From: Erysipelotrichaceae bacterium
GTDB taxonomy: Bacteria > Bacillota_I > Bacilli_A > RFN20 > CAG-449
DNA: 46,436 nt
Direction of reading: 5' to 3'
Assembly: GCA_015059095.1 (NCBI GenBank)
Contig: SVBA01000014.1
Span: 4,907 to 51,342, forward strand
The position numbers and the translations under genes are program-made. Positions 2,982 through 45,743 of the stretch are shown here, one piece after another. Each line of letters opens with the position of its first letter. Within the stretch, counting starts at the first letter, position 1. Below the pieces are notes generated by a model that saw nothing but the letters and a program-made list of their open reading frames with translations, was not told where the DNA came from and ran no database searches.

Positions 2982-4151
2982 ATGGTTAATTTTTTAGCAA
3001 AATTATTTATTAAAGATTACAAAAATGTAGAAAATGAAAAAGTAAGAGAAAATTATGGAACTCTTTCTGGAGTATTTGGGATTATTACTAATTTAATTTT
3101 AGTAGTTATTAAAGTAATAATTGGATTATTATCTGCATCTATTTCAATTATTGCAGATGCGATTAATAATCTTTCTGATATGGGAAGTTCTTTATTGACA
3201 ATTATTGGTTTTAAAATATCTTCTAAACCTGCGGATAAGGATCATCCTTATGGCCATCAAAGAGTTGAATATATAATTTCTTTAATTATCGCGATGATTA
3301 TTGCTTTTGTTGGACTTGAATTATTAACTACTTCAATTGATAAAATTATTAATCCAGATATTATTAAAGTAGAGGTTATTACTTTTATTATTTTAGGTGT
3401 TGCGATTGTTTTAAAAGGATTACAAGGATTATTCTATTTAAGTGCGTCTAAAAAAATTGATTCTTTATCTTTAAAAGCTTCTGCAAAAGATTCTATTAAT
3501 GACTGCATTTCTACTTCTGCAGTATTAATTGGTACAATTATTTCTAAAACTACGGGATATAATGTTGATGGTATTGTAGGTATTTTAGTTTCTGGATTTA
3601 TTATTTATTCTGCAATTATGTTAATTAAAGAAACAATGTCTCCTTTAATTGGAGAAAAACCGGATCCAGAATTAATTGAAAAAGTAACTAGAACAGTATT
3701 ATCTTATCCTAAAGTATTAGGTATTCATGATGTTATTACTCATCTTTATGGACCAAGTAAAGTATTTATTTCTTTACACGTAGAAATAGATGCAAAAGAT
3801 GATATATTAGTTTCTCATGATTTAATTGATAATATTGAACAAGAAGTAAAAAGAGATTTTGGAATCGAATTAGTTATTCATATGGATCCAGTAGAAACGG
3901 ATAATGAAGAACTCAATAAAGGTAGTAAAGTTGTTAGAGAAGTATTAAAAGAAATCGATCCAATTATTATGTTTCATGATTTTAGAATGGTAAAAGGTGA
4001 AACTCATACTAATTTCATTTTTGATGTACTCGTACCATTTCAATATAAATATAGTGATGAAGAATTAGTTGAATTAATTAAAAAAGAAGTTAGTAAGAGA
4101 GATGAAAAGTATCGCTGTGTTATTTTAGTGGATAAAGATTATGTTAGTTAA
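2982..4151 (+). CDS. Cation diffusion facilitator (CDF) family transporter, candidate Mn(II) exporter
   Basis: A 389-residue protein with the CDF layout: six membrane helices in the first ~215 residues, then a cytoplasmic ferredoxin-like domain with a further C-terminal extension. Helix 2 reads I-A-D-A-I-N-N-L-S-D (Asn62 and Asp66 as the metal pair), the helix 2-3 loop has D-H-P-Y-G-H, and helix 5 has K-D-S-I-N-D (Asp-x3-Asp). An Asn/Asp-Asp/Asp site rather than His-containing sites fits manganese CDFs such as MntE better than zinc exporters. Metal choice is inferred. An inverted repeat lies directly upstream and a terminator overlaps the stop. Confidence 0.85.
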   Translation: MVNFLAKLFIKDYKNVENEKVRENYGTLSGVFGIITNLILVVIKVIIGLLSASISIIADAINNLSDMGSSLLTIIGFKISSKPADKDHPYGHQRVEYIISLIIAMIIAFVGLELLTTSIDKIINPDIIKVEVITFIILGVAIVLKGLQGLFYLSASKKIDSLSLKASAKDSINDCISTSAVLIGTIISKTTGYNVDGIVGILVSGFIIYSAIMLIKETMSPLIGEKPDPELIEKVTRTVLSYPKVLGIHDVITHLYGPSKVFISLHVEIDAKDDILVSHDLIDNIEQEVKRDFGIELVIHMDPVETDNEELNKGSKVVREVLKEIDPIIMFHDFRMVKGETHTNFIFDVLVPFQYKYSDEELVELIKKEVSKRDEKYRCVILVDKDYVS

Positions 4152-4175
4152 GACGAAGAAATTCGTCTTTTATTT
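4150..4175 (+). terminator. Terminator after the CDF transporter
   Basis: An 8-bp stem (AAGACGAA/TTCGTCTT) with a GAAA loop is followed by a T-rich tail; the stem begins within the stop codon. Confidence 0.85.
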
Positions 4176-4181
4176 TTAAAG

Positions 4182-4187
4182 TATAAT
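4182..4187 (+). promoter_or_regulatory. -10 box of the DAP operon promoter
   Basis: TATAAT lies just downstream of the preceding terminator. No good -35 hexamer is visible at 16-18 bases. Transcription would begin near 4194, giving a leader of about 35 bases that contains the whole start-codon hairpin at 4204-4237. No lysine riboswitch fits in so short a leader. Confidence 0.5.
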
Positions 4188-4203
4188 ATTTTAATAAAAA
4201 TCA

Positions 4204-4237
4204 TATCTTCATAAGAGGTGATAATCTTATGAAGATA
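4204..4237 (+). promoter_or_regulatory. 13-bp hairpin enclosing the dapF ribosome binding site and start codon
   Basis: Positions 4204-4216 (TATCTTCATAAGA) and 4225-4237 (TCTTATGAAGATA) are exact reverse complements. The eight-base loop 4217-4224 is GGTGATAA. The ribosome binding site AGAGGTGA straddles the loop and the left arm, and the ATG of dapF (4229-4231) is buried in the right arm. As RNA this would hold the first start codon of the lysine/DAP operon in a stable stem. It could instead be a DNA operator. A perfect 13-bp match is very unlikely by chance. Confidence 0.75.
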
Positions 4238-5002
4238 GAAAAGTATCATGGATTAGGTAATAATTTTTTATTAACAGATTATAAAAAAGGAATTGATTAT
4301 AAAGAAGCCGCAAGAAAGTTATGTAATCAAAAAACTTCTATAGGTGGAGATGGATTAATTGTTGTAAAAAAAGAACCTTTAGAAATGTTAATCTATAATC
4401 AAGATGGAAGTGAAGCAATAATGTGCGGTAATGGAATAAGATGTTTTATTCATTATTGTTTTTATAATGGCCTATTAAATAAAAGAAGAGAAAATATTGA
4501 AGTACGAACTAAAAGTGGAATATACATAGTAAGCATTGTTTCTTTATTACCTTTTATTACTAGAGTAAGGTTTAAACGTAGTCTTATTAGAAAAGAAATA
4601 ATAGGGATATATAATGAAGAATATGAATCTTATTTTGTTAAAGTTGGTGTTAATCATAATGTAATTGTTAGAGATGAAAATAATAAGGAAAAAATTAATA
4701 AGCTGAAAAATGATTTTAATAAATATAGCGGATTTTGTGAAGAAACTAATATTAATATTGTAGAAAAAGTAAACGATAATACTATTAAAGTGGAGACTTA
4801 TGAAAGAGGCGTAGGCCTTACCTCTAATTGTGGAACAGGTAGTGTGGCATCTAGTCTAGTAACTAATTATTTGTTTGATTGTTTAAATAATATTAATGTA
4901 ATAAATGAATACGGGAAAATATCAATTTCTATATTAGGAAACTATGTTTATATGGAAGGACCTTCAGAAAGAATATGTTCTATAGAGGTGAATTATGATT
5001 AA
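4229..5002 (+). CDS. dapF: Diaminopimelate epimerase
   Basis: A 257-residue protein that interconverts LL- and meso-diaminopimelate in the cytoplasm, for cell wall and lysine synthesis. The two catalytic cysteines are visible in M-C-G-N-G-I-R-C (Cys66) and T-S-N-C-G-T-G (Cys201). The opening K-Y-H-G-L-G-N-N-F and the substrate motif E-R-G-V-G are also present. It is slightly short of the usual ~270-280 residues. It is the first gene of the operon, and its last eight bases overlap dapA. Its start codon lies in the 13-bp hairpin, so translation of the leading gene is probably regulated. Confidence 0.95.
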   Translation: MKIEKYHGLGNNFLLTDYKKGIDYKEAARKLCNQKTSIGGDGLIVVKKEPLEMLIYNQDGSEAIMCGNGIRCFIHYCFYNGLLNKRRENIEVRTKSGIYIVSIVSLLPFITRVRFKRSLIRKEIIGIYNEEYESYFVKVGVNHNVIVRDENNKEKINKLKNDFNKYSGFCEETNINIVEKVNDNTIKVETYERGVGLTSNCGTGSVASSLVTNYLFDCLNNINVINEYGKISISILGNYVYMEGPSERICSIEVNYD

Positions 5003-5867
5003 AGGAAGTATAGTAGCATTAGTGACTCCTTTTACTAATGATAATAAGGTTAATTATAGTAAGTTATATGAATTACTTGATTATCAAATTAATAATGGAA
5101 GTGATGGAATATTACTCTTTGGAACGACAGGAGAAGGTTCAACTTTAACTAAAAATGAAAAAGTAGAAATTGCTAAAAGGAGTATTGAATATGTAAAAAA
5201 TAGAATTCCTCTTATTTTAAATGCTGGATCTAATTCGACTCAAGAGGCAATTGAATTAGTAAAAGAATTATCATCTTTACAACCTTACGCTTTATTAGTA
5301 ATTAATCCTTATTATAATAAGGGGAATGATGAAGGTATCTTTAAACATTATCAAGAATTAAATAAAGTAAGTGAGGTTCCTATTATTATTTATAATGTTC
5401 CTTCTAGAACTGGAAAAGATATGTCTATTTCTTTAATAAAAAGAATAATGACTTTAGATAAAATAATAGGTATTAAAGAGGCGTCAAGCGATATAAATAA
5501 ATTAATTGAATTATCTAAAATACAAAATGAAAAGTTTTATTGGTATTCTGGAAATGATTATCGAGTTATTGAAGATATAAAATTAGGGAGTAAAGGTCTT
5601 ATTGGAGTAATGACAAACTCTCATCCTAAATTAGTAAAAGAAATGATAGATTGTACTTTCATTGAGGATTTTGAAAAGGCATATGATATATTTTTCAAAT
5701 TAGAAAATTATATTAAATCGTTATCTCTTGAAGTTAATCCTATTCCAATTAAAGAGGCTTTAAATATTTTAGGATATGATGTTGGTAATTTTAGATTACC
5801 TTTATATAATCTTGAAAATGAAAAAAGAGAAATATTAATAGATGCTTTAAAGGAGATAGAAGAATGA
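4995..5867 (+). CDS. dapA: 4-hydroxy-tetrahydrodipicolinate synthase
   Basis: A 290-residue TIM-barrel aldolase that condenses pyruvate with aspartate semialdehyde. Landmarks are L-F-G-T-T-G-E-G (Thr44/Thr45), Y-N-V-P-S-R-T-G (Tyr133, Arg138) and the Schiff-base lysine in G-I-K-E-A-S (Lys161). Length is normal. The ATG at 4995 follows AGAGGTGA inside the end of dapF, giving an eight-base overlap typical of translational coupling. It ends in TGA within the ATGA that starts dapB. Confidence 0.96.
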   Translation: MIKGSIVALVTPFTNDNKVNYSKLYELLDYQINNGSDGILLFGTTGEGSTLTKNEKVEIAKRSIEYVKNRIPLILNAGSNSTQEAIELVKELSSLQPYALLVINPYYNKGNDEGIFKHYQELNKVSEVPIIIYNVPSRTGKDMSISLIKRIMTLDKIIGIKEASSDINKLIELSKIQNEKFYWYSGNDYRVIEDIKLGSKGLIGVMTNSHPKLVKEMIDCTFIEDFEKAYDIFFKLENYIKSLSLEVNPIPIKEALNILGYDVGNFRLPLYNLENEKREILIDALKEIEE

Positions 5868-6526
5868 ACATTGCTATTTTTGGATATGGAAAAATGGGGA
5901 AGAGTTTAGAAAATCAATTAATAACGAAACATAATTTAATAATTGTTAGTCCAGAAACGAATACGAGTTTTGAAGATATAAAAGAAAATATAGATGTTAT
6001 TATTGATTTTTCTTCTCATGAAGTAATTAAAGATATTGAAGAGTATTTATTAAATAAGAAGTGTTCTTTAATAATAGGTACTACTGGATATAGTGATGAA
6101 GAAAATAAAATAATAAAAAGAATTAGTGAAAACCATGTTGTAATTAAATCTTCAAATTATTCAAAAGGAATGAATATATTTTTAGATTTAATATCTTTAT
6201 TTCAAAATTATGATTTATTAAATGAACAATTATTGATAAAAGAAATACATCATAAAAACAAAAAAGATGTTCCTAGCGGAACAGCTTTAATGATAAAAGA
6301 TGTATTAAATAAAGATATTAATATTGAATCAATTAGAAAAGATGAACACGTTGGTGAGCATCAAGTAATTGTTAGTTTAAATAATGAAAAAATAATTTTA
6401 ACTCATCAAGCTTATTCAAGAGATGTATTTGTGAGTGGGGTAATTGAGGTATTAGAAATAATTAATAATTTGGAAGTTGGATTATATTCTTTAGGAGATC
6501 TTAGTTTATGGAAAGAGAAAAAATGA
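5864..6526 (+). CDS. dapB: 4-hydroxy-tetrahydrodipicolinate reductase
   Basis: A 220-residue NAD(P)H-dependent reductase, near the short end for the family (about 225-270). It has the Rossmann start I-F-G-Y-G-K-M-G-K, the I-G-T-T-G-Y segment, S-N-Y-S-K-G-M-N, and the substrate motif E-I-H-H-K-N-K-K-D-V-P-S-G-T-A with the catalytic His-His and Lys. It shares an ATGA with the dapA stop, and its end overlaps dapH. Together with DapA it makes tetrahydrodipicolinate. Confidence 0.94.
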   Translation: MNIAIFGYGKMGKSLENQLITKHNLIIVSPETNTSFEDIKENIDVIIDFSSHEVIKDIEEYLLNKKCSLIIGTTGYSDEENKIIKRISENHVVIKSSNYSKGMNIFLDLISLFQNYDLLNEQLLIKEIHHKNKKDVPSGTALMIKDVLNKDINIESIRKDEHVGEHQVIVSLNNEKIILTHQAYSRDVFVSGVIEVLEIINNLEVGLYSLGDLSLWKEKK

Positions 6527-7197
6527 TTAGTTTGATTAAAAATAAAAATAAAACAACTTTAGTAAAGGCTTATATACAAGCGAAAGAAGATATTGTTTTC
6601 AAAGGAGTTAAACAATTCGGAGATAAATCTTTATATTTAGTAATTGGGGATTTTAATATTATTAAAAAGACAATAGATGATAATAAAAAAATAATTAAAG
6701 CTTTTCATATTGATATTATTAATCGAAACTCCAATCTTCCTTTATTAGATTATTCGAAAGTTAATGCACGTATAGAACCAGGTGCAATTATTAGAGAACA
6801 TGTAAAGATAAAAGATAATGCAATCATATTAATGGGGGCAGTTATTAATATAGGAGCAGAAATAGGTAGTAATACAATGATAGATATGAATGCAGTTATT
6901 GGAAGTAACGCTAAAATTGGAGATAATGTCCATATTGGTGCAGGAGCAGTAATTGCTGGTGTATTAGAACCTCCATCAAGTAAACCTACAATTATTGAAG
7001 ATAATGTTTTTATAGGAGCAAATGCAGTTATTTTAGAAGGTGTTAGAGTTTGCAAAGATTCTATTGTCGGAGCAGGTTCGATAGTAACTAAAGATGTTCC
7101 AAGTGGAGTGGTAGTGGTAGGAGTGCCTGCTAGAATAATAAAAAGGAGTATTAATATAGATAGTAATAAAATAAAAAAAGAAGGGGATTTACGCTAA
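6508..7197 (+). CDS. dapH: Tetrahydrodipicolinate N-acetyltransferase
   Basis: A 229-residue protein. An N-terminal helical/alpha-beta region is followed from about residue 85 by left-handed beta-helix hexapeptide repeats (many I-G-x-x-A, I-G-A-x-V turns) and the end G-V-V-V-V-G-V-P-A-R. It uses acetyl-CoA, which defines the acetylase branch of DAP synthesis. The ATG at 6508 was chosen because the N-terminal helix then lines up residue for residue with Bacillus DapH (M-x-x-x-E/K-x-I-S-x-I) and AGGAG lies upstream. An alternative ATG at 6523 sits in an ATGA overlap with dapB and cannot be excluded. Confidence 0.93.
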   Translation: MEREKMISLIKNKNKTTLVKAYIQAKEDIVFKGVKQFGDKSLYLVIGDFNIIKKTIDDNKKIIKAFHIDIINRNSNLPLLDYSKVNARIEPGAIIREHVKIKDNAIILMGAVINIGAEIGSNTMIDMNAVIGSNAKIGDNVHIGAGAVIAGVLEPPSSKPTIIEDNVFIGANAVILEGVRVCKDSIVGAGSIVTKDVPSGVVVVGVPARIIKRSINIDSNKIKKEGDLR

Positions 7198-7199
7198 AA

Positions 7200-8183
7200 A
7201 TGACTAATTTATATAATGTTTTAGTTGTTGGGGGAACAGGATTAGTAGGTAAAAAATTAATAGAAATATTGATTGAAAACAATTTCCCATTTAATAGAAT
7301 TCGATATACTAAATCTGAATACTCTAGTAGATCTTTAATAATTAAAAATATTGAAATTGAAGAAGTTGAATTAAATAATTATTGTTTTGATGATATTGAT
7401 TTTTGTTTTCTTTGTTCAACTAGTGAAGTTTCTTCTAAATGGGGAAATGTTGCAAAAGCAAAATGTAAATATGTTATTGATAATTCATCTACTTTTAGAA
7501 TGGATAATAATGTTCCTTTAATAATTCCTGAAATCAACTTTGAAAGCATTAATTCTTCTTTCATCTCTAATCCGAATTGTTCTACTATTCAATCTTTACT
7601 AGTATTAAACGAAATTAAAAAAATATATAAAATAAATAAAATTATTTATAGCACTTATCAATCTTGTTCAGGTGGAGGAAAAGAAGAGTTAATAGAATTA
7701 AGTAAATCGTATGATAAAGTAAGTTCTATTTATTCTGAGTTATTGTGTGACACATGTATTTCACAAATTGGTGAAATTAATGATACTAGATTTTCATTAG
7801 AAGAATTAAAAATGATCAATGAAACAAAAAAGATATTTAATGATTATACTTTAGAGGTTCATGCTTCTTGTATTAGAGTGCCGGTATCTTATTGTCATGG
7901 AGTTTTTATTTACTTAGAAGTAGATAAAGAAGTAGATGTTAATAAAATAATCAACTTAATTAAAAATAGTGAACGACTAGAATATAAAAAAGATAATGAG
8001 ATACTTTATTTTCAAGAAGCTTATCAAAAAGATAAGGTATTAGTCGGAAGAATAAAAAAAGATTTAACAAATCCTAAAGCTTTCTCATTATTTTGTGTAG
8101 CAGATAATTTAAGGGTAGGAGCAGCTTTTAATGCATATAATATTGCATTACATTTAATAAGGAGAAATAATGAAAAAAATTAG
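7200..8183 (+). CDS. asd: Aspartate-semialdehyde dehydrogenase
   Basis: A 327-residue NADP-dependent enzyme that makes aspartate semialdehyde from aspartyl phosphate and so feeds DapA. The Rossmann motif V-V-G-G-T-G-L-V-G-K is at residues 9-18, the active-site cysteine is in S-N-P-N-C-S-T (Cys127), and H-A-S-C-I-R-V-P-V near residue 220 holds the substrate-binding residues. Only two bases separate it from dapH. Its end overlaps the following deacetylase by 14 bases. Aspartokinase, which must precede it in the pathway, is not in the window. Confidence 0.95.
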   Translation: MTNLYNVLVVGGTGLVGKKLIEILIENNFPFNRIRYTKSEYSSRSLIIKNIEIEEVELNNYCFDDIDFCFLCSTSEVSSKWGNVAKAKCKYVIDNSSTFRMDNNVPLIIPEINFESINSSFISNPNCSTIQSLLVLNEIKKIYKINKIIYSTYQSCSGGGKEELIELSKSYDKVSSIYSELLCDTCISQIGEINDTRFSLEELKMINETKKIFNDYTLEVHASCIRVPVSYCHGVFIYLEVDKEVDVNKIINLIKNSERLEYKKDNEILYFQEAYQKDKVLVGRIKKDLTNPKAFSLFCVADNLRVGAAFNAYNIALHLIRRNNEKN

Positions 8184-9237
8184 AGAAGATTTACATAAAA
8201 TTCCTGAGTTAAGTTTTAAAGAATATAAAACAAAAGAATATATTCTTTCTTTTTTAAATAATCGAGTGGAAAACATTATTGAGATTGGTGATACAGGATT
8301 AGGGATATATTTTGATTTTAAAAAAGAAAAGACTATTTGTTTAAGATGTGAGATGGATGCTCTTCCAATAAAAGAAGAAAATGATGTTGAATATAAATCT
8401 ACTCTTGACAATCAAATGCACGCATGTGGACATGATGGTCATATGGCAATTCTTTTGTCTTTAATCGATGATATTTTAGAAAATAAAGTAAAACCTCTTC
8501 ACAATGTATTATTTTTATTTCAACCTTCTGAAGAAGTATTTGGTGGAAGTGAACTTGTTATTAAATCAAAAATTTTAGATGATTATCAAGTAGATGAAAT
8601 TTATGGATTACATGTTTGGCCAAATCTTCCTGAAGGAGAAATATTTACTAGAAAGAAAGAATTATTATCCGAACCTATTGAATTTGATATTGAGATAAAA
8701 GGTAAAAATGCTCATGTTGCATCATCTTTTGAAGGGAAGGATGCATTATATGTTGGAGTAGAATTACTCCATGACATAAAAAAAGAAACTAATTTAATTG
8801 ATGAATCAATTGTTCATATTGGTGAAGTTTACTCGTATGGACAAAGAAATATTGTATCTGATAATTTTCTTTCAAAAGGAACTATAAGAGTATTTTCTTC
8901 AAATATAAAAAATAGAATATTGGATATTATTAATAGATGGTGTAATTTTTATAAAAGAACTTTTGATTTAGATATTAATTTAGTTATAAATTCTTCTTAT
9001 GCTCCATTAATTAATAATGAAGAATTAGTTTCAAAATCATTAAAATATGGTGTTCGACTTTTAAAATATCCATATTTTCATAGTGAAGACTTTTCTTTGT
9101 ATCTTCAAAAAATTAAGGGAGCATATTTTCTTCTAGGATGTGGAAATGTACCTCCTCTCCATAGTTCAAATTTTGATTTTAATGGAGATATTCTAAATAA
9201 AGGAAAAGAATTATTTATTAATTTATTATCAAATTAA
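8170..9237 (+). CDS. dapL: N-acetyldiaminopimelate deacetylase (M20 peptidase family)
   Basis: A 355-residue M20-type amidohydrolase. Landmarks are D-L-H-K-I-P-E-L-S, R-C-E-M-D-A-L-P-I, the metal motif M-H-A-C-G-H-D-G-H (residues 83-91) and Q-P-S-E-E with the catalytic Glu (121/122). The family includes many amidohydrolases, but the position directly after asd in a DAP operon with DapH argues for N-acetyl-LL-diaminopimelate deacetylase (YkuR type). AGGAG precedes the ATG and the gene overlaps asd by 14 bases. It is the last gene of the operon; no clear terminator is seen after it. Confidence 0.88.
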   Translation: MKKIREDLHKIPELSFKEYKTKEYILSFLNNRVENIIEIGDTGLGIYFDFKKEKTICLRCEMDALPIKEENDVEYKSTLDNQMHACGHDGHMAILLSLIDDILENKVKPLHNVLFLFQPSEEVFGGSELVIKSKILDDYQVDEIYGLHVWPNLPEGEIFTRKKELLSEPIEFDIEIKGKNAHVASSFEGKDALYVGVELLHDIKKETNLIDESIVHIGEVYSYGQRNIVSDNFLSKGTIRVFSSNIKNRILDIINRWCNFYKRTFDLDINLVINSSYAPLINNEELVSKSLKYGVRLLKYPYFHSEDFSLYLQKIKGAYFLLGCGNVPPLHSSNFDFNGDILNKGKELFINLLSN

Positions 9238-14761: not shown

Positions 14762-14784
14762 AAACTATTACTTTTACATATAAT
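14756..14784 (+). promoter_or_regulatory. Promoter of the MNT/HEPN module
   Basis: TTTACA (14756-14761) and TATAAT (14779-14784) are separated by 17 bases. Initiation near 14791 would leave an untranslated leader of only about 16 bases, which is essentially the ribosome binding site. Confidence 0.75.
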
Positions 14785-14808
14785 AAAACTAGAGGTGAAT
14801 AGTTTTAT
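14783..14808. repeat. 9-bp perfect inverted repeat around the antitoxin ribosome binding site
   Basis: ATAAAACTA (14783-14791) and TAGTTTTAT (14800-14808) are exact reverse complements around GAGGTGAA. The left arm overlaps the -10 box and the right arm ends within the ATG. From the promoter above, the left arm would be mostly untranscribed, so a DNA-level operator at -10/+1 is as likely as an RNA hairpin. Confidence 0.55.
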
Positions 14809-15292
14809 GAATAAAGACTCAAATATAATTATTAGAATCGATTCCAAGTTAAAAGATGATTTTAAGGAATTATGTAATAAAAACGGCGTAAGTGTTTCTG
14901 GTGTAATTGGTATGACAATTGAAAAAATGGTTAAAAGAGATCAAATCCCAATGGCGATAACATATCGATTACGTTATTTGAAAAATTACAATAAGATGTT
15001 AACAATTCCAGTAATAAAGAAAAAATTGAAACATATTTTTGATCGAACTGAGGGAAAAGTCGAAAAAGCTTATTTGTTTGGTAGTTATTCTCGTGGAGAA
15101 GAAAATAACGATAGTGATGTTGATATTCGTTTAGTGGTTAAAAGAGGATTTACTTTAATTGATCAAGAAGAAATTATAAAAGAATGTGAAAAGATTTTAG
15201 AAAAGAAAGTAGATATTGTAACAAGTGGTAATTTAAATAGTGCTTTCTTGAACGAAATAAGAAAGGATGAAATCTGCATATATGAACAATAA
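14807..15292 (+). CDS. MntA-type nucleotidyltransferase antitoxin with N-terminal RelB/DinJ-like RHH domain
   Basis: A 161-residue two-domain protein. Residues about 5-52 read D-S-N-I-I-I-R-I-D-S-K-L-K then V-S-V-S-G-V-I-G-M and R-D-Q-I-P-M-A-I, the beta-strand/helix/helix plan and IPF-like tail of RelB/DinJ antitoxins. Residues about 85-140 are a minimal nucleotidyltransferase: G-S (92-93), ten residues, then D-V-D (104-106), with a later V-D-I (135-137). In known pairs MntA silences HepT by attaching AMP to a tyrosine. The RHH half likely binds the palindromes upstream. The ATG at 14807 follows AGAGGTGA; a GTG at 14795 lies in that site. It overlaps the toxin gene. Confidence 0.85.
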   Translation: MNKDSNIIIRIDSKLKDDFKELCNKNGVSVSGVIGMTIEKMVKRDQIPMAITYRLRYLKNYNKMLTIPVIKKKLKHIFDRTEGKVEKAYLFGSYSRGEENNDSDVDIRLVVKRGFTLIDQEEIIKECEKILEKKVDIVTSGNLNSAFLNEIRKDEICIYEQ

Positions 15293-17839: not shown

Positions 17840-18097
17840 ATAAGTAAATACGAAGAAAAGAAGAAGTAGTATATAAAATTATTTATAGAGAGTTACTGGT
17901 TGGTGAAAAGTAATATTAGTTTATATATGAATACATCTTGGAGTTGTGTACCGAAAGAGAGTAGGCTACAACGAGTGATACCCGTTAAAGTATTAGAGTT
18001 ATTAACTCACTGAGGTAAATAGTGCGAACTATTTATGAATAAAGGTGGTAACACGGTGAAATTCATCGTCCTTTGGTTAATCTAAAGGACGTTTTTT
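17840..18097 (+). ncRNA. T-box riboswitch leader (tyrosine)
   Basis: This 306-base gap between the GH13 gene and tyrS is filled by a T-box leader. Stem I carries a TAC tyrosine specifier in GAATACATC (TAC at 17932-17934). The antiterminator T-box is at about 18041-18055, AAAGGTGGTAACACG, whose TGGT (18046-18049) would pair with the ACCA end of uncharged tRNA-Tyr. A terminator (18067-18097) ends it. Uncharged tRNA-Tyr would stabilise the antiterminator and allow tyrS transcription. The specifier, tRNA contact and gene identity agree. Confidence 0.93.
18067..18097 (+). terminator. Regulated terminator of the tyrS T-box
   Basis: An 8-bp stem (CGTCCTTT/AAAGGACG) with a nine-base loop and a six-base T-run. 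Its left arm lies downstream of the T-box sequence, so formation of the antiterminator competes with it. Confidence 0.9.
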
Positions 18098-18115: not shown

Positions 18116-19318
18116 ATGGGAATTTATGAAGAATTAGAATGGAGAGGACTTATTAAAGATGTATCTGATCCATCAATTAGAGAAAAATTAAATAAGGGTG
18201 GTATGACTTTCTATATTGGTACTGACCCAACAGGCGATTCTTTACATATTGGTCACTTTTCAAGTTTCTTAATTTGTAAAAGATTAAAAGATGCTGGTCA
18301 TCATCCAATTGTTTTGGTTGGTGGAGCAACTGGATTAATTGGTGATCCTAAACCAGATAGTGAAAGACCAATGATTACTAAGGAAACAGTTTTACATAAT
18401 TATGAATGTTTAAAGAATCAATTAGTTAATTTATTTGGATGTGAAGTAGTTAATAACTACGATTGGTCAAAAGATATTAACTTTATCGATTTTTTAAGAG
18501 ATTTTGGTAAGTTCTTTAATGTTAACTATATGTTAAGTAAAGATATTGTTGCTAGAAGATTAGAACAAGGTATTACATATACTGAATTTTCTTATATGAT
18601 TATGCAAGCTTTAGATTTCTGGTGGTTAAATCAAAATAAAGGTGTAACTCTTCAAGTAGCAGGTCAAGATCAATGGGGTAATATTACTGCAGGTATTGAA
18701 TTATGTAGAAGAAAATCTAATAAAGAAGTTTATGCTTTCACTATGCCTTTATTAACTAAGAGTGATGGAACTAAATTTGGTAAAACTAATGGTAAAGCAG
18801 TCTGGTTAGATAAAAATAAAACTACTCCATATGAAATGTATCAATTCTTTATTAATTCTGAAGATAGTAAAGTTATTGATTATTTAAAATTCTTAACATT
18901 CTTATCTAAAGAAGAAATTGAAGAATTAGAAGTTAAACATAATGCTGCTCCTCATTTAAGAGAAGCGCACAAAGCTTTAGCAAAAGCTGTTATTACTTTC
19001 CTTCATGGTGAAGAAGCATATAATGAAGCTTTAGCAACTGCTCAAGCTGTATTTAGTGGTCAAGGTTCATCTAATATGCCAACTTTAGAATTAAAAGAAG
19101 AAGATTTAGTTGATGGACAAATTGATATTTTATCTTTATTAGTTAAATGTGGATTTGCTTCTTCCAAAGGTGATGCAAGAAGAACTGTAGAACAAGGTGG
19201 AGCATCTATTGATAATGAAAAAGTTAGTGATGTTAAAGCATCATATTCTAAAGAACAATTAACAAACGGCCTAATTGTTAAAAAAGGAAAAAAGAATTTC
19301 AAAAAAGTTATTTTATAA
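18116..19318 (+). CDS. tyrS: Tyrosine--tRNA ligase
   Basis: A 400-residue class I aminoacyl-tRNA synthetase. The HIGH motif is H-I-G-H (44-47) after Y-I-G-T-D-P-T-G-D-S-L. The KMSKS-type loop is K-F-G-K-T (about 227-231), and A-G-Q-D-Q-W-G-N-I-T lies in the catalytic fold. The C-terminal part (about 335-400) is an S4 RNA-binding domain with G-D-A-R-R-T-V-E-Q-G-G. Length is normal. GAAAGGAG precedes the ATG. It is controlled by the T-box leader and ends at a strong terminator. Confidence 0.97.
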   Translation: MGIYEELEWRGLIKDVSDPSIREKLNKGGMTFYIGTDPTGDSLHIGHFSSFLICKRLKDAGHHPIVLVGGATGLIGDPKPDSERPMITKETVLHNYECLKNQLVNLFGCEVVNNYDWSKDINFIDFLRDFGKFFNVNYMLSKDIVARRLEQGITYTEFSYMIMQALDFWWLNQNKGVTLQVAGQDQWGNITAGIELCRRKSNKEVYAFTMPLLTKSDGTKFGKTNGKAVWLDKNKTTPYEMYQFFINSEDSKVIDYLKFLTFLSKEEIEELEVKHNAAPHLREAHKALAKAVITFLHGEEAYNEALATAQAVFSGQGSSNMPTLELKEEDLVDGQIDILSLLVKCGFASSKGDARRTVEQGGASIDNEKVSDVKASYSKEQLTNGLIVKKGKKNFKKVIL

Positions 19319-44959: not shown

Positions 44960-45643
44960 TTATTTTAGTATTCCAAGTTTATTAATTATTTCTATTTTAC
45001 TTAATAGTTCATTAAAGACAATATCAGCCTCATAATAATCTTTTGTGAATAATTTTATAGATAGTTTGATTACGAGGCTAGAAATGTCTCTAAATGTGGT
45101 TTTTAATAAATCTACGTTGACACTAGAATCATATTTAATTATTAAATTATCGAATTCTTCGAGTAGAGAATTTAATTCTTTTTTATATTCAGTTAGTATC
45201 TCTTTATTTGAAGATTGTAAGATTGGAATTATAGAAAATAATTTAGAAGATATACTTTCTAATATTTCAACAACTTTTGCTTTTTCATCCTTTGAAAGAG
45301 TAGTAAATTCATCAACTAAAATAGTGTTTTGATAAAGTAAATTTCTTTTAACAATACTGAAGTTTTCAGGGAAATATAGGATGGAAGCATATCCTTCTTT
45401 AAATAGATGAGCAATACTAGTAAGTGCAAGAGATAGCTTTTCATTTTCTAGATCCATTTCAATAATTTGTTCTTCATAAAAACTAATAATGTGTAAAGGT
45501 TGATTTTCTACTAATGGAACATATTTTGTCATTTTGTTGTAACGATAAAACACTTCTTTTGACATATTAAATTTTTTAATAATTGAATCGATAGTGTCTC
45601 CTTTTTGTACAACATATAAGTTTACAATAGATTTTGATTTCAT
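44960..45643 (-). CDS. LysM-domain protein without a signal peptide
   Basis: A 227-residue protein. Residues about 8-55 are a LysM domain: Y-V-V-Q-K-G-D-T-I-D-S-I-I-K-K-F-N-M-S followed by N-Q-P-L-H-I. The remainder is helical and charged, with no recognised family. LysM normally binds peptidoglycan outside the cell, yet no signal peptide or membrane helix is visible, so the protein is predicted to be cytoplasmic. A GAGGT site precedes the ATG (complement). It lies convergent to the nuclease-transporter operon and divergent from uridine kinase. Confidence 0.75.
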   Translation of the reverse strand: MKSKSIVNLYVVQKGDTIDSIIKKFNMSKEVFYRYNKMTKYVPLVENQPLHIISFYEEQIIEMDLENEKLSLALTSIAHLFKEGYASILYFPENFSIVKRNLLYQNTILVDEFTTLSKDEKAKVVEILESISSKLFSIIPILQSSNKEILTEYKKELNSLLEEFDNLIIKYDSSVNVDLLKTTFRDISSLVIKLSIKLFTKDYYEADIVFNELLSKIEIINKLGILK

Positions 45644-45743
45644 AAAATTAGACCTCTATATAAATCTATGTTAGAAAGTTAAATTAATTAACTTTAATTT
45701 GAACAATATATTCTTTATAATAAAGTTTAGTGGGGTGATTTTA

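Follow-up and report, generated by a model that had tools for sequence, protein, structure and literature searches.

The dapF gene, which heads a diaminopimelate (DAP) operon in the 46,436-nucleotide stretch of Erysipelotrichaceae DNA analysed here (the window), has its start codon inside a long perfect hairpin, and the question that this locus raises is on which RNA such a hairpin could act. All features of the locus are on the forward strand. Upstream stands a gene for a cation efflux (CDF) transporter (2982-4151; Pfam Cation_efflux and ZT_dimer), and a terminator scan placed its intrinsic terminator at 4150-4169, with an 8-bp stem, a loop of 4 and a T-run, which limits read-through into dapF. 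The operon then comprises dapF itself, for diaminopimelate epimerase (4229-5002; TIGR00652 above cut-off), dapA (4995-5867; TIGR00674 above cut-off), and the genes for a DapB-like reductase (5864-6526; TIGR00036, 115.5 of 122 bits), a tetrahydrodipicolinate N-acetyltransferase (6508-7197; TIGR03532 above cut-off), aspartate-semialdehyde dehydrogenase (asd, 7200-8183; NF011456 above cut-off) and an M20-type amidohydrolase (8170-9237; TIGR01891 above cut-off). The amidohydrolase is probably the N-acetyl-DAP deacetylase, a substrate suggested by its place in the operon. The operon is tight, with gaps of -19 to +2, and since the N-terminus of DapF is normal, the ATG at 4229 is the right start.

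The perfect inverted repeat TATCTTCATAAGA-GGTGATAA-TCTTATGAAGATA occupies positions 4204-4237. The repeat search and the predicted fold agree on a loop (GGTGATAA, 4217-4224) that holds the core of the Shine-Dalgarno (SD) sequence, and on a right arm (4225-4237) that includes the ATG (4229-4231) and codons 2 and 3; the left arm (4204-4216) overlaps a predicted -10 element. The SD of dapF (AGAGGTGAT, 4214-4222) spans, as AGAGGTGA, the junction of left arm and loop, and its core GGTGA is predicted to be unpaired with a probability of 0.99. An earlier note on this DNA had described an exact 13-bp repeat with an eight-base loop, a ribosome binding site over the loop junction, a start codon within the right arm and pairing that reaches codons 1-3, and all of this was borne out: none of 100 dinucleotide shuffles reproduced the pattern. 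The note had also proposed computing the folding energy, which for RNA 4188-4260 was predicted to be -17.3 kcal/mol (z -3.97), with no shuffle equally stable.

We then compared this hairpin with the rest of its genome, sampled as 46 stretches that cover about half of it. Among 300 predicted gene starts, dapF ranked first both in stem length (13 bp, the next being 9) and in folding energy, a ranking that does not contain the true glmM start with its 15-bp stem, the gene prediction having placed glmM at another ATG. A search of 708 kb for perfect repeats with arms of at least 13 and loops of 3-20 returned six distinct ones, at 11 counted positions, compared to counts of 0, 4 and 2 per 708 kb in first-order Markov sequences. 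Four of the six carried T-runs and were terminator-like. The remaining two, at dapF and at glmM, were thus the only hairpins of this size outside such terminators, and both have a -10 in the left arm and the ATG in the right.

The -10 at dapF is part of a motif with exact spacing, ATA(4183-4185)-N16-CATATCTT(4202-4209), whose CATAnnnT-type -10 lies 19 nt before the ATG. The earlier note had placed a -10 box at 4182 instead. A TATAAT is present there, but it has no matching -35, and nothing at this place passed a sigma-70 scan; the ATA of the new motif lies within that TATAAT, which would thus supply the predicted sigma-E -35 core. Each of the six family genomes that have dapF-dapA carries CATAnnnT just upstream of dapF, in five of them preceded by [AC]TA-N16, and CATATCTT gave the most leader matches among 420 permutations of its letters. 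The sequence was first conspicuous before dapF of the own genome (G000) and of G005 and G010, and before a second dapA-like gene (dapA2). When the 18 genomes of the family set were scanned for CATATCTT followed by an SD and an ATG, the genes recovered, leaving aside a phage-like gene and matches that fell within genes by chance, were dapF (in three), aspartokinase (in three), dapA2 (in two), the D-Ala-D-Ala ligase gene ddl (in one), a SpoVID-like gene (in one) and also a D-Ala-D-Ala carboxypeptidase. In the own genome, this type of -10 precedes sigK, gerQ, ylbD, yjcZ, yabP, spoVD and a SleB-like hydrolase, and CATATCTT stands also in the sigK leaders of G009, G012, G015 and G016. The idea that CATATCTT was part of an operator or an RNA motif was dropped once it had been seen before sigK, coat and cortex genes.

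SigE, SigF, SigG and SigK are all encoded in the own genome, the SigE gene adjoining ftsZ and spoIIGA-like genes and the SigF gene having spoIIA-type neighbours. In Clostridioides difficile, the sigma-E promoter of spoIIID reads ATA-N16-CATATATA, sigma-K promoters are distinguished by AC at -35, and dapG is on the sigma-E list (PMC3789822); in Bacillus subtilis, the cortex genes spoVD and yabPQ are under sigma-E control (PMC517825). Because of the ATA at -35 and the set of genes, we prefer sigma-E to sigma-K. From these sequence comparisons, the left arm of the dapF hairpin probably forms the core of a promoter that is active in spore formation only. Promoters of this kind were also noticed in other settings. 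The murE start ATG lies 5 nt past CATATCTT, with no SD (L265:8170-8235, G000:C28), and an ftsW/spoVE-like start on the minus strand lies 5 nt past CATATGTT (L264, near 2690), so spaced that both may give leaderless sporulation transcripts. At the right end of the window, CATAGATT (45641-45670, minus strand) precedes a LysM-domain gene that is likely to be another sporulation gene.

If the -10 lies in the left arm, transcription would start about six to nine bases downstream, at 4215-4218, as judged from the usual distance between -10 and start. Such a sporulation RNA would begin at the SD, and the predicted probability that its AUG is unpaired was 0.2-0.55, with a minimum free energy of about -5. 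For RNAs starting at 4195-4208, the predicted probability was 0.00 and the minimum free energy -17 to -12. RNA from 4215-4218 lacks the left arm, and the stem can therefore act only on RNA begun upstream. We infer that some RNA leaks past the terminator at 4150-4169; it would carry both arms, its AUG would be fully paired and no DapF would be made from it, whereas the shorter sporulation RNA should be translatable. We thus propose, with a probability of about two in three, that the -10 of a sigma-E-type promoter doubles as the left arm of the hairpin, and that this hairpin keeps read-through RNA from being translated, so that the enzyme at the head of a complete DAP operon would be confined to the sporulation promoter. 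The earlier note had put the whole element in a leader of ~35 bases. This is not supported, the main start being predicted close to where the left arm ends, for a transcript without the stem. Its idea of a compact translational switch stood in part: the hairpin is able to close the start codon and a regulatory role is plausible, but the promoter and the signals then proposed found no support.

The same design recurs at glmM (best match TIGR01455), where a 15-bp stem, ATATTTCATATATTA / AAAAGAGGA / TAATATATGAAATAT (L129:3765-3803, G000:C1), has the -10 CATATATT in its left arm, the SD in the loop and the ATG in the right arm. No ATA-N16 was found before the glmM -10, a point against the proposed reading. 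A terminator-like hairpin, AGTACTAG-TAAT-CTAGTACT-TTTTT, lies between this element and its upstream gene, and glmM heads an operon that continues with an alpha/beta hydrolase, a MurF-like ligase and ddl. The dapA2 gene (L148:18662-19504, G000:C28) has a CATATCTT promoter and, at its start, a hairpin of 9 bp (18638-18664); where DapA has its Schiff-base lysine (GIKEASSD), the dapA2 product has isoleucine (GLIESSSD) and is therefore probably no active synthase. When 828 kb were scanned for left arms with CATAnnnT whose right arms contain ATG, nine hits were obtained, with stems of 15, 13, 12 and 9 bp and five of 8 bp, against none in the reversed sequence; two of the hits are both strands of one divergent site. 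One hit is a PemK/MazF-like gene (L201:3260-3796, minus strand, G000:C23) whose start is enclosed by a perfect 12-bp hairpin that has CATATATT at its left arm, and its lack of a known sporulation role counts against the proposed silencing. In a related arrangement, seen in two genera, it is the SD that would be masked: GGAGGT pairs with ACCTCC just 5′ of the -10 in L274 (yabP) and in L297 and L189 (SpoVID/LysM-like). Within the window, a start hairpin of like kind (CATATAATAAAACTA-GAGGTGAA-TAGTTTTATG, 14777-14815) was observed at a nucleotidyltransferase-like gene (14807-15292) that is possibly part of a toxin-antitoxin system.

A palindrome that covers a -10 could also be the site of a DNA-binding repressor, and each arm at dapF is itself a partial palindrome, TCTTnnnAAGA. 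In a search of the whole genome with the two-site pattern, zero mismatches occurred only at dapF, a result little above the control, and a regulon defined by this pattern was rejected. Furthermore, the palindromes at dapF, glmM and dapA2 share only the -10. As their sequences and spacings differ, what recurs is the pairing and not a protein site, and we regard an operator as very improbable.

A stronger objection to silencing of read-through RNA is that the sigma-E promoter is real and the hairpin incidental. CAT... and ATG, 15-20 nt apart, are partly complementary in an AT-rich genome, so this pairing comes for free, and further pairing could have arisen by drift, the stem being absent from the sporulation transcript in any case. 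Indeed, CAT...ATG pairing of 5 bp is seen at 21% of all ATG starts, so that exact pairing of this kind is by itself weak evidence; control leaders reach 9-bp stems, the dapF leaders of relatives have best stems of 5-7 bp, and the Markov sequences contained some repeats of at least 13 bp. We assembled 24 sigma-E-type leaders from the family. Half of them had stems of at least 7 bp from the promoter side to the SD or start, compared to 11% of 388 intergenic leaders, and random control sets of 24 leaders never had more than seven genes with such stems. In a swap test, pairing between each start and its own upstream region averaged 6.79 bp versus 5.66 bp for swapped partners (P 5e-5). Leaving out dapF gave P 8e-4, and leaving out both dapF and dapA2 gave P 1.5e-3. 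These two genes had been included partly for their stems, a point against the proposed silencing. Intergenic control leaders slightly exceed their swaps too, and part of the enrichment is therefore general local palindromy. The swap result, the empty reversed-sequence control and the fact that 13- and 15-bp stems head both wall-precursor operons, while elsewhere repeats of this length are terminators only, argue against coincidence. All in all, an incidental hairpin appears unlikely, though it keeps an appreciable share of our belief.

Conservation of the arms in relatives, whose absence the earlier note would have taken as refutation, gave a divided answer. In the dapF leaders of relatives, the hairpin was absent and the sequence of the arms unconserved, which, like the short stems of those leaders, speaks against silencing; the architecture stood, in its recurrence within the own genome and its enrichment across the family. 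DapF of these relatives is 33-38% identical, too distant for covariation to be assessable, and a broad GTDB scan yielded no closer DapF (best 40%).

Read as the switch of the earlier note, the hairpin would be part of the translated RNA and would respond to temperature, ribosomes, lysine or a protein. The stable stem and the paired AUG agree with this, but the position of the promoter, the SD free in the loop, the unconserved arms and the evidence on lysine do not. The core GGTGA is unpaired, unlike in ROSE and fourU thermometers, and an SD paired in a stem, which would mark an RNA thermometer, was not found at dapF; temperature sensing is thus unsupported. As the note had stated, no lysine riboswitch precedes dapF: no Rfam riboswitch was found there, RF00168 had no match in the window, and the only Rfam match of the window was a T-box leader (RF00230, 116.6 bits) at 17844-18076. 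The only lysine riboswitch of the genome stands before an amino-acid ABC transporter (G000:C32), and lysA is absent from the own genome and from 17 of the 18 family genomes, which makes lysine an unlikely signal. Taken together, we consider a sensing switch in the working transcript to be improbable in the extreme.

The proposed silencing of read-through RNA has, in turn, a bearing on the cell wall. With lysA missing and the lysine riboswitch on a transporter, DAP would serve peptidoglycan, and perhaps dipicolinate, rather than lysine. DNPR, the mDAP motif, is present in MurE, and a DAP wall in growing cells would call for DAP enzymes made during growth; no source of these was found in the half or so of the genome that was read. 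A wall restricted to spores would agree with all of this. One tentative view, which we think doubtful, is that this lineage makes peptidoglycan precursors for the spore alone and that growing cells have little or no wall. The DAP and glmM-murF-ddl operons would then both be under mother-cell promoters, and the terminators and promoter-embedded start-codon hairpins would stop growth-phase read-through from making the enzymes. The joint absence of sigK, murE, dapF and dapA from three complete genomes (G008, G011 and G014), which belong to one sister genus, is consistent with this. So is a survey of Bacilli in which wall and spore genes were lost together, large losses of wall genes being seen only where sporulation genes had gone too; it predicted thin walls for RF39 (PMC10868615). 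Whether uncultured Bacilli near Mycoplasmatales have a wall when growing or only in spores thus becomes testable.

Several known systems are comparable. The MS2-type operator hairpin contains the SD and AUG of the replicase gene and, like the dapF hairpin, is small and has the AUG in the 3′ arm; it differs in being bound by a protein, on the RNA that is in use. As for promoters, the dapF motif is of the same ATA-N16-CATA type as sigma-E elements of B. subtilis and C. difficile (PMC517825, PMC3789822); unlike there, a whole DAP operon begins with one, and the predicted leader is about 12-14 nt. A close parallel is bacteriophage T4, where an inhibitory helix hides the SD and/or AUG of genes e, soc, 49 and I-TevI in early, longer transcripts. 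Its 5′ strand is encoded by the late promoter, so that late transcripts lack it and are translated, the effect at gene e being ~100-fold (PMC3014915). Likewise, the long dapF RNA is predicted to fold over its AUG, the predicted promoter encodes the 5′ strand and the predicted short RNA is free of the stem. The differences are the phage late promoter TATAAATA there and, here, a sigma-E-type CATATCTT on a bacterial chromosome, before wall-precursor operons. In B. subtilis sigG, a large leader hairpin has been proposed to block translation of spoIIGA-sigE read-through RNA, and it cannot form in RNA from sigG's own sporulation promoter (PMC5942855). That hairpin has 20 or more bp, a forespore promoter and a single regulator gene; those described here have 13-15 bp, use the -10 as the left arm and head metabolic operons. 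On the best reading, the dapF element would be a read-through silencer like those of T4 gene e and B. subtilis sigG. If so, the T4 late-gene trick, also proposed for sigG, would be used repeatedly in one bacterial genome, where the masking strand would be the -10 itself and wall-precursor enzymes would be confined to one developmental stage.
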